DNA of 64,000 bases, taken from assembly GCA_021777535.1 (NCBI GenBank), contig JAJYDN010000009.1, forward strand, positions 1-64,000, written 5' to 3'. Source of the DNA: Pseudomonadota bacterium (GTDB lineage: Bacteria > Pseudomonadota > Gammaproteobacteria > Acidiferrobacterales > Acidiferrobacteraceae). The position numbers were made by a program, and so were the translations under genes. Below are positions 33,521-35,449 of the stretch, in pieces. The notes beneath the pieces were generated by a model, which did no database searches, had not been told where the DNA came from, and was given only the letters and a program-made list of their open reading frames with translations. Within the stretch, counting starts at the first letter, position 1. The number at the start of each line of letters is the position of its first letter.

Positions 33521-35449
33521 TCACGGCGCAGGCGGCACCATCACGCCCGGGAACAGGCGGGCGATCTCGGTGTAGACGCGGGCGGGTTCTTTTTCGTACC
33601 GGCGGGAGAAATGGAAGGGAACGAGATGGCGGACGCGGGCGGCGGCGGCGATTTGCGCACACGCGGTCGCGGTGAGGTGGCCCGTGCGGCGGGCGTACTC
33701 GGCATCCGCAGCAAGAAAGGTGGCCTCGCAAAAGAGCGTGTGGGCCCCGTCGGCGAGACCGATCAGGCGACGGCGGTTCGCGGGCGTATCCGCGAAGTCG
33801 GTGGCATAGGCGAGCTTGCTGCCCGGGGAGACGAGGACCAGCTCCGCCTGAAGGGCCGCCACCGTCGCGCGGCGGCCGCCGGGCAGACTGATGCGCGCCG
33901 CATACCGCCGCGCCAGAATGCGGTCCTTCAGTTCGTTCAGCCAGGGGCCGGGCTCGAGGCCTTGCTGGCGGAGGCGTTCGCGGCGGACATTGATCTGAAC
34001 CGGCGCCTCGAAGGCGTAGGCGAGCACCGGTATGCCGTGATCCAGAGTGACGGCGCGCACCCGGAAAGCCGGTTCGTCCAGCACGGTGCCGGCGACCGCC
34101 GCGTGTTCGCCGAACAGGACCGGGCCCGCGCGCCCGGCCTGCAGGGCAAAGAGCCGGAGGCGCCGTCCATGCAGCTCGGCTACCGCGAAACGCGGGCCGC
34201 GATCCCCGATGCGGTCCCAGTGGATCCCGTCGATCAGGTGCTGCAGGCGCACGGCCAGACCTGGCGGGCCGTAGACGCGACAGCGCCCACGGACGCCCAC
34301 GCGGGCCCGCAACAGCCAGAGAAAACCGCTGATGTGATCCATGTGGGCATGGCTGACGAAGACGTCGCTCACCTGGTGCGCGAGCCGCGCCGGCAGCCGC
34401 GCGCCGTCGCCGAGATCGAAGAGGAGACTGCGGCGCTGGTGCCGCAGACGCAGGTGCAGCTGGGGATCCCCCAGCGCGCCGTTCAGGAGAACCGCCGCGG
34501 CGCTGCCGGTCTGCACCGTGGGGCAGGGGCCGGCAAGCGGGCCCGGCCCTGCGGCGGCAACGGAGGCGGGCAGCGGAAGGGGGCGGGGAACGCGGCCGGC
34601 TTGGCGCTCTTCGGTAACCAGCAGACCGCCCGCACTGCGGCGTGCGTCGCGCGCGAGGAGCACCGCGGTGGGCGCGCAGTCGCGCGGCAGAAGGACGTGG
34701 ATCACCTCCCCGTCGAGGCGGGTGACCTCGCCCATGGCAGCGGTGGCCCCCTTTTCCAGAAAGGCCACCTGCTTGCCGACCCAGGCCGCGGGCGCCTGAC
34801 GGGGCAACAGACCGCACAGGCGCAAACCCGCCAGCGCGACGGCGTGCTGGCGGCCTCCCTCCAGGTGACGATCCCATGTGCGGGTGCGCTCCCGGTCGCG
34901 GCGGCCTTTCCCGGGACGCGCGGCAGAGGCTGCGGCGCGGACGGCGACGACTTCGACACCGGGGTCGGAGAGTGCGCCGGGCAAAGGGGAAATCTGCCCT
35001 TCGCGCTGGAGAAGGAGCACCAGATCGATCGCCGCGGCCCGCCACAGCGCCTCCAGGAGTTCGGCGGCGGCGATGCCGCGAACGACGCCCGGGGCATCGA
35101 GCAGGAGCGTGCCGGGGGGTGCCAGGAGAGCGAGGGAGGCCACCGCCTCCACGAGCGGCAACCGAAAGCGTGCGGCATCGAGCGTACAGAGGGCGCGCAG
35201 ATGCCGGGCCGTCCAGGCAGGCGGCGTCCATTCGCCGAGGCTCACCGCGCCGGGGACACCAAAACCCGGGTTACCGGGATCGGCGCCCAGGCACCAGGGC
35301 ACGGTTGCACCGCACGCGAGTTCGGGCGCGAGCGCGACGGCGAGGGTGGTCTTGCCGATGCCGGGCGGACCGAACAGGAGCGTGCGGCGCCCCCGCATCG
35401 ACAGCCCCTGGACGAGCCGCCGGGGGTCTTTTGCCGAATACGTTTCCAT
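33521..35449 (-). CDS. Fusion of a Clp1-like polynucleotide 5'-kinase and RNase Z
   Basis: A 642-residue protein with two separate enzymatic halves in one frame. Residues 1-265: P-loop LLFGPPGIGKTTLAVAL (27-34), then GADPGNPGFGVPGAVSL (55-71), which resembles the D-x-D-x-G-Q-x-x-PG signature of the Clp1/Grc3 RNA kinases, LLLDAPGVVRGI, and an arginine-rich lid region (KGRRDRERTR-type, 181-190). Residues about 312-642: a metallo-beta-lactamase with VFVSHAHMDHISG (His367, His369, Asp371, His372), VTLDHGIPVLAYAFE, LPGGRR, FCEATF, GHLT and the RNase Z ending HLVPFHFSRRY. RNase Z cuts tRNA 3' trailers; Clp1 kinases phosphorylate RNA 5'-OH ends. No stop separates the halves. An internal GTG at residue 312 could also make RNase Z alone. 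Confidence 0.75.
   Translation of the reverse strand: METYSAKDPRRLVQGLSMRGRRTLLFGPPGIGKTTLAVALAPELACGATVPWCLGADPGNPGFGVPGAVSLGEWTPPAWTARHLRALCTLDAARFRLPLVEAVASLALLAPPGTLLLDAPGVVRGIAAAELLEALWRAAAIDLVLLLQREGQISPLPGALSDPGVEVVAVRAAASAARPGKGRRDRERTRTWDRHLEGGRQHAVALAGLRLCGLLPRQAPAAWVGKQVAFLEKGATAAMGEVTRLDGEVIHVLLPRDCAPTAVLLARDARRSAGGLLVTEERQAGRVPRPLPLPASVAAAGPGPLAGPCPTVQTGSAAAVLLNGALGDPQLHLRLRHQRRSLLFDLGDGARLPARLAHQVSDVFVSHAHMDHISGFLWLLRARVGVRGRCRVYGPPGLAVRLQHLIDGIHWDRIGDRGPRFAVAELHGRRLRLFALQAGRAGPVLFGEHAAVAGTVLDEPAFRVRAVTLDHGIPVLAYAFEAPVQINVRRERLRQQGLEPGPWLNELKDRILARRYAARISLPGGRRATVAALQAELVLVSPGSKLAYATDFADTPANRRRLIGLADGAHTLFCEATFLAADAEYARRTGHLTATACAQIAAAARVRHLVPFHFSRRYEKEPARVYTEIARLFPGVMVPPAP

Follow-up and report, generated by a model that had tools for sequence, protein, structure and literature searches.

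The 64,000-nucleotide stretch of DNA analysed here (the window) carries, on its minus strand, a single uninterrupted frame of 642 codons followed by a stop (33521-35449; ATG at 35449, stop at 33521-33523), which encodes a 642-aa fusion of a Clp1-like kinase with a tRNase Z and has homologues in other genomes. The initial annotation had reported this 642-codon frame without its strand, and we found both the frame and the listed motifs as claimed: GPPGIGKT at residues 27-34, GADPGNPGFGVPG at 55-67, SHAHMDH at 366-372 and HFSRRY at 613-618. Glycerol-phosphate genes lie downstream of the fusion gene and an outer-membrane protein gene lies upstream; these neighbours were uninformative, as were those of the homologue in genome G022. 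Comparison of the GC content of the gene (0.70-0.74) with that of its surroundings (0.65-0.71) gave no clear sign of foreign composition or of an island, and a phage origin was set aside after no match to the fusion was found among 50,697 phage records.

The kinase and tRNase Z halves

The protein was modelled with AlphaFold2 on 73 aligned fusions (mean pLDDT 91, pTM 0.68) and the model was compared with known structures using Foldseek and VIA-align, while conservation was counted over 73 diverse fusion sequences; all coordinates below refer to the minus strand. The N-terminal half (residues 1-275; 34625..35449) comprises a P-loop core and a small C-terminal domain. Pfam CLP1_P matched residues 27-197 (6.6e-11, 42.8 bits, above the gathering cut-off of 26.6). 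In a plain sequence search of the PDB, the P-loop drew mostly AAA ATPases, and the structure search resolved the assignment to Clp1: human CLP1 in the TSEN complex (8hmy_E) aligned with model residues 3-272 (Z 26.6, 263 residues), C. elegans Clp1 (4ohy) aligned with residues 4-275 (Z 26.5), and yeast Clp1 and Grc3 were the next matches. The proposed structural similarity of residues 1-265 to Clp1 was thereby confirmed. Furthermore, hhalign of the kinase half against a free-standing bacterial Clp1 gave 98.4% and E 4e-15 over an alignment spanning the Walker A motif, DxG, the clasp and the lid.

In the Walker A motif, GPPGIGKT (residues 27-34; 35348..35371), G27, G30, G32 and K33 were invariant in 73/73 fusions, and S/T34 was likewise kept in all 73. 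The Walker B-like stretch GADPGNPGFGVPG (residues 55-67; 35249..35287) aligned with LDADIGQ of a free-standing bacterial Clp1 and contained D57, invariant in 73/73; the Gln of DxGQ, however, was kept in only 2 of the 73 sequences, with Ser in 56 and Asn in the window protein. A motif typical of the fusion family, DAARFRLPL (residues 91-99; 35153..35179), aligned with VDPRGHSLPL of a bacterial Clp1, and its R94, R96 and L97 were invariant (73/73). The clasp equivalent, DAPGVVRG (residues 118-125; 35075..35098), had invariant D118, P120 and G121 but no Trp: the family carries [A/G/T]PGV instead of TxGW, with Thr in 12/73. The free-standing bacterial Clp1 encoded in genome G386 likewise lacks the clasp Trp (INTPGI). 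Within the lid (residues 178-192; 34874..34918), R188 was kept in 73/73, R184 in 72/73 and R178 in 56/73, and W192 never varied among the 73 fusions. Because the TxGW clasp and the Gln of DxGQ are lost, we regard the kinase half as a divergent Clp1 relative, whose catalytic core is apparently intact and whose handling of substrate may therefore differ from that of Clp1. The earlier description of a Clp1/Grc3-like kinase thus stands for the family, by sequence, profile and fold, with the qualification that this member is divergent at those two motifs.

Compared with the Clp1/Grc3/Nol9 kinases, including bacterial Ts-Clp1 and the CLP1 of TSEN (8hmy), the fusion shares the fold of the core and C-terminal domain (Z 20-27 over ~265 residues), the Walker A motif, the Asp of DxG and the lid arginines. 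It differs in lacking the eukaryotic N-terminal domain and TxGW, in having mostly Ser for the Gln of DxGQ, in its extra RFRLPL motif and in the attached tRNase Z. RNA kinase activity has been proven for the Thermus scotoductus Clp1 (PMC6777427). In a published Clp1 survey, bacterial Clp1 proteins averaged 333 +/- 74 aa, against 642 aa for the fusion, and the main text of that survey does not mention fusions to RNase Z or lactamase.

A linker (residues 276-316; 34502..34624), where model confidence was lowest (pLDDT <50 at 284-288), leads to the tRNase Z half (residues 317-639; 33533..34501). This half matched Pfam Lactamase_B_2 (3.7e-13) and, over residues 319-637, the NCBIfam model NF002558 of the PRK02126 'ribonuclease Z' subfamily (5.3e-87; 292 bits, just below the cut-off of 315). 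It scored far below the cut-off of the RNase Z equivalog TIGR02651 (110 versus 293 bits), a threshold that no fusion or relative reached among the genomes searched. In the structure comparison, the B. subtilis RNase Z-tRNA complex (4gcw) aligned with model residues 317-639 at Z 27.2, and E. coli RNase BN/ZipD (2cbn) at Z 26.4, ahead of YhfI and PhnP; the C-terminal half thus resembled RNase Z (Z 27) more closely than YhfI (23) or PhnP (18-20). The claim of an RNase Z-type metallo-beta-lactamase held by sequence, profile and fold.

The metal-binding motif HAHMDH (residues 367-372; 34334..34351) had H367, H369, D371 and H372 invariant in 73/73 fusions, and the same was true of H471 at a metal-ligand position (34037..34039) and of the bridging metal ligand D551 (33797..33799). 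H591, at the catalytic His position of RNase Z (33677..33679), was kept in 72/73, the remaining sequence having a gap; H613, S615 and R617 of HFSRRY (residues 613-618; 33596..33613), which holds the last metal ligand, were each kept in 72/73, and E575 never varied among the 73 fusions. The GP motif GLEPGPW (residues 497-503; 33941..33961) marks the tRNA-gripping arm, or exosite, with G501 and W503 in 73/73 and P502 in 70/73. Since this motif is kept and the tRNA-bound RNase Z aligned more residues with the model (280, with 4gcw, of 307 residues) than did 1y44_A (243, of 269 residues), the arm appears to be present in the modelled fusion. Together, the comparison with RNase Z (B. subtilis 4gcw and 2fk6; E. 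coli RNase BN/ZipD 2cbn) revealed a common fold (Z 26-27), agreement at all metal and catalytic positions and a common GP-motif arm; the fusion differs in falling below the equivalog cut-off, near the PRK02126 (NF002558) subfamily, and in bearing a kinase at its N-terminus. As the P-loop, D57, R184, R188 and the zinc and catalytic positions are kept in 72-73 of the 73 sequences, the kinase and nuclease heads are both under selection.

Distribution and RNA-repair neighbourhood of the fusion family

A second family within the order yielded a 646-aa homologue of the fusion, 53-54% identical over the whole length, whereas some ten further genomes from this order hold the RNase Z half only, in frames of 349-484 aa with 36-43% identity. 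When 369 genomes of the class were searched with the kinase half, there were 16 matches, namely the window, 13 more full fusions in other families of the class, a fragment in genome G218 and the free-standing bacterial Clp1 of G386. The G218 fragment (L134:1-4511, contig C288) is a fusion gene that has decayed and is truncated by the contig end; archease and rtcB genes lie immediately in front of it. A kinase-half scan of ~85,000 species genomes returned 140 relatives, of which 80 were kept; kinase and nuclease lay in one frame at 75 of these loci, three were cut by a contig end, L118 was frameshifted and L126 was decayed, and no intact free-standing copy of the fusion-type kinase was found in the scan. 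As regards an internal start that would give RNase Z alone, nearly all homologues were of full length. The decayed locus (L126:398-1066), from a Methylobacter MAG, holds only a remnant of the kinase half, followed by an IMP dehydrogenase gene. The genome search suggested in the initial annotation therefore revealed a widespread family, of which the window protein is one member, rather than a one-off protein.

Carriers belong to Pseudomonadota, including nitrosomonads and one zetaproteobacterium, and to sulfate reducers of the Thermodesulfobacteriota. Among them are isolates of Methylobacter tundripaludum, M. marinus, M. luteus, several Nitrosomonas, Photobacterium marinum, Saccharospirillum, Litchfieldella and Desulfobulbus alkaliphilus, as well as the symbiont Thiodiazotropha. 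The distribution is patchy, and the fusion was absent from the other members of the window's genus and family that were searched. In a quick tree, a single branch (SH-aLRT 97) separated the fused RNase Z halves from free-standing PRK02126 proteins, a topology consistent with a single fusion event. The RNase Z halves of two loci, L087 and L088, are identical although their MAGs are filed under different families, and one of these MAGs, FO_M_Gamma_043.1, also holds L082; this pattern is likely to reflect cross-binning.

We also considered the genes around the fusion. Among 136 unselected neighbours, the commonest Pfam was RtcA, the RNA 3'-phosphate cyclase (6 neighbours), with RtcB found twice. 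The rtcA gene adjoins the fusion in L065 (63 bp), L124 (8 bp), L077, L090 and L113, and lies beside it in L071 with a small THUMP protein gene between; rtcB and archease genes lie close to the fusion in L055 and L062. Assuming one copy of each gene per 3-Mb genome, about 0.55 loci near rtcA, or near rtcB with archease, would be expected in the 826 kb covered, against the eight observed (Poisson 1.3e-7), and the excess persisted for seven independent placements (1.9e-6), counted because L071 and L077 are sisters. The remaining 72 of the 80 loci had no rtc gene within the flanks examined. In genome G108, a THUMP-rtcA-archease-rtcB gene order occurs ~8 kb from the fusion. No RNA-repair neighbours were found for the plasmid-borne free-standing relatives of the RNase Z half.

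Co-occurrence across the 369 class genomes pointed in the same direction, in Fisher tests that ignore phylogeny: RtcB was present in 12/14 carriers versus 114/355 other genomes (8e-5), RtcA in 7/14 versus 27/355 (7e-5) and the long RtcB type in 10/14 versus 62/355 (2e-5). Archease was present in 11/15 carriers. In the window genome, RtcB is encoded on another contig (C74), no RtcA or archease match was detected, and rtc linkage to the fusion is absent. The suggestion of a role in tRNA repair or turnover thus gained independent support from the neighbourhood and from co-occurrence with RtcA, RtcB and archease, while the coupled 5'/3' activity that was proposed with it keeps the standing of a prediction.

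Several other genes recurred near the fusion. A small protein of 179-192 aa (Pfam THUMP in L071) is encoded beside rtcA and/or the fusion in L071:2893-3429, L136:4956-5531 and L132:14597-15139; proteins of this type occur in 8/369 class genomes, seven of them with RtcA, and are possibly an undescribed tRNA-binding partner of RtcA. A CheR-like methyltransferase gene lies directly beside the fusion (20-170 bp) in L069, L085, L101 and L136 and nearby in L105. A gene with a helix-hairpin-helix region of the DNA polymerase X type occurs near the fusion in L062, L067, L068, L071, L073 and L095, with a full PolX in L062. In the Nitrosomonas loci L081, L102, L103 and L105, a macro-domain gene is found upstream of the fusion and in opposite orientation to it; in L102 the two genes are direct neighbours.

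Candidate roles at the ends of broken tRNAs

We weighed what an enzyme of this architecture might do. Housekeeping maturation of tRNA 3' ends is unlikely. CCA is encoded in both tRNA genes of the window; none of the genomes searched, the window genome and the other carriers included, holds a canonical RNase Z that passes the equivalog threshold; and no RNase Z-like match of any kind was found in three genomes from the same family as the window. For these reasons, 3' maturation in the group seems independent of the fusion. Since 12/15 carriers have no match to the 5'-P/3'-OH RNA ligase family PF09414, which was found in the other three, a kinase product would usually meet no obvious ligase.

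Diversion to decay is the simplest reading for a protein that unites a 5' kinase with a tRNA-holding 3' nuclease in RtcB-containing cells, and we give slightly less than an even chance to an enzyme that acts on RNA ends with two heads in one chain and steers 5'-OH tRNA fragments away from RtcB ligation and into turnover. The N-terminal Clp1-type P-loop kinase would phosphorylate RNA 5'-OH ends, and the C-terminal tRNase Z would grip the tRNA elbow through its arm and cut or trim the acceptor (3') end. Acting beside rather than inside the RtcB pathway, the fusion would by phosphorylation put a broken tRNA half beyond the reach of RtcB, because RtcB needs a 5'-OH. The new 5'-monophosphate would suit 5'-sensing decay nucleases such as RNase E, which prefers 5'-monophosphate ends, and the tRNase Z head would remove the 3' end of the phosphorylated fragment. 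Overall, cleaved tRNA-like RNA would be either ligated or cleared, and the fusion would take part in that choice. RtcB joins 2',3'-cyclic or 3'-phosphate ends to 5'-OH ends, and 5' phosphorylation inhibits this ligation (PMC8935212, PMC13247085). With respect to the RtcB-RtcA-archease repair systems (PMC7790460), the fusion is connected by genomic linkage in 8/80 loci and by co-occurrence; the 5'-OH ends that RtcB joins are the substrate that a 5' kinase removes, and the linkage is missing in the window genome.

The kinase and nuclease activities, the tRNA substrate and the direction towards clearance are what we infer from the two folds, the retained catalytic residues, the GP-motif arm, the linkage and co-occurrence with rtc genes, the rarity of the ligase and a 3' maturation for which the fusion seems dispensable. 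Against diversion stand the many loci without a nearby rtc gene, the window genome's lack of RtcA and archease matches, the missing TxGW clasp and DxGQ Gln and the low equivalog score of the RNase Z half; in addition, enzymes that share an operon cooperate more often than they compete. The association with rtc genes fits repair or decay alike, and the data do not decide between them. In animals, CLP1 is a negative regulator of RtcB ligation (PMC8935212, PMC13247085). It is possible, though doubtful, that the fusion is a bacterial fate switch for broken tRNAs, which would phosphorylate 5'-OH halves in competition with RtcB and go on to cut off their 3' ends; that such a switch would be the prokaryotic one-chain counterpart of the animal CLP1-RtcB antagonism is an analogy we draw just as tentatively.

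The kinase could instead heal ends. Its 5'-P product, together with a damaged 3' end trimmed or opened to a 3'-OH by the metallo-hydrolase half, would allow a 5'-P/3'-OH ligase to reseal broken tRNAs, or CCA to be added to them again. Known end-healing enzymes carry two end-modifying heads in one chain, and T4 Pnkp and bacterial HD-Pnk pair a P-loop 5' kinase with a second end-modifying activity, as predicted for the fusion; their partner domain is unrelated, however, and their kinase belongs to a different family. According to Saito et al., T4 PNK does not come up in Clp1 searches. This shared layout, the linkage to rtcA, rtcB and archease and the PF09414 ligase of 3/15 carriers favour healing, whereas the lack of a ligase match in the other 12, the inability of RtcB to use a 5'-P (PMC8935212) and the closer resemblance of the C-terminal half to an arm-bearing tRNase Z than to the phosphodiesterases YhfI and PhnP argue against it. 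On balance, we consider healing rather unlikely, although it retains a real chance of being correct.

We judged it distinctly unlikely that the nuclease is the working part of a tRNA 3' processor whose Clp1-like half is an RNA-binding or regulatory P-loop module that binds ATP or RNA but does not phosphorylate ends. The lost TxGW clasp and DxGQ Gln would fit such a half, as would the genomes without another RNase Z over the cut-off and the existence of dead PNK domains with RNA-binding roles, such as that of hnRNPUL1 (PMC13066744). Conversely, K33, S/T34, D57, R184 and R188 are each retained by 72 or more of the 73 fusions and would not be needed by a dead kinase, the clasp Trp is likewise missing from the free-standing bacterial Clp1, and the window tRNA genes encode CCA.

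An improbable further role is the coupled processing of a specific precursor RNA, such as an rRNA spacer or a tRNA operon, in the manner of Las1-Grc3 and without a part in repair. RNase Z cleavage leaves a 5'-P and a 3'-OH, so the fusion nuclease's own product would need no kinase; moreover, the patchy distribution and the absence from the genus and family members searched argue against an essential precursor. The role draws on the pairing of nuclease with kinase, which is the principle of Las1-Grc3 and TSEN-CLP1 (8j60, 8hmy; PMC10942766). The fusion follows these complexes in the principle of physically coupling an RNA endonuclease to a kinase of the Clp1 family, and differs in being one chain with a metallo-beta-lactamase nuclease, where they are separate chains with a HEPN or TSEN nuclease that leaves a 5'-OH. 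Finally, an artefact, whether frameshift or sequencing error, misassembly or chance joining of two genes, is refuted and had no supporting evidence, because homologous same-frame fusions recur across other families, in 75/80 loci and in 15 genomes, isolates such as Methylobacter tundripaludum SV96, Nitrosomonas communis Nm44 and Photobacterium marinum AK15 included.

The initial annotation knew of no described protein with this architecture, and our full-text literature searches, whose scope did not extend to the 2016 RNA-repair survey of Burroughs and Aravind, found no description of the fusion either. While the nuclease-kinase principle is known, the single-chain pairing and the company of RtcB thus appear undescribed in the literature that could be searched. 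Most of what is known of Clp1-family kinases comes from eukaryotes and archaea, and a conserved bacterial fusion that tends to accompany RtcB, archease and RtcA offers a concrete, testable candidate role in tRNA damage. The fusion is also a compact nuclease-kinase enzyme to set beside Las1-Grc3 and TSEN-CLP1, and its isolates, among them Methylobacter and Nitrosomonas, offer a bacterial system for the choice between rejoining and destroying a broken tRNA.
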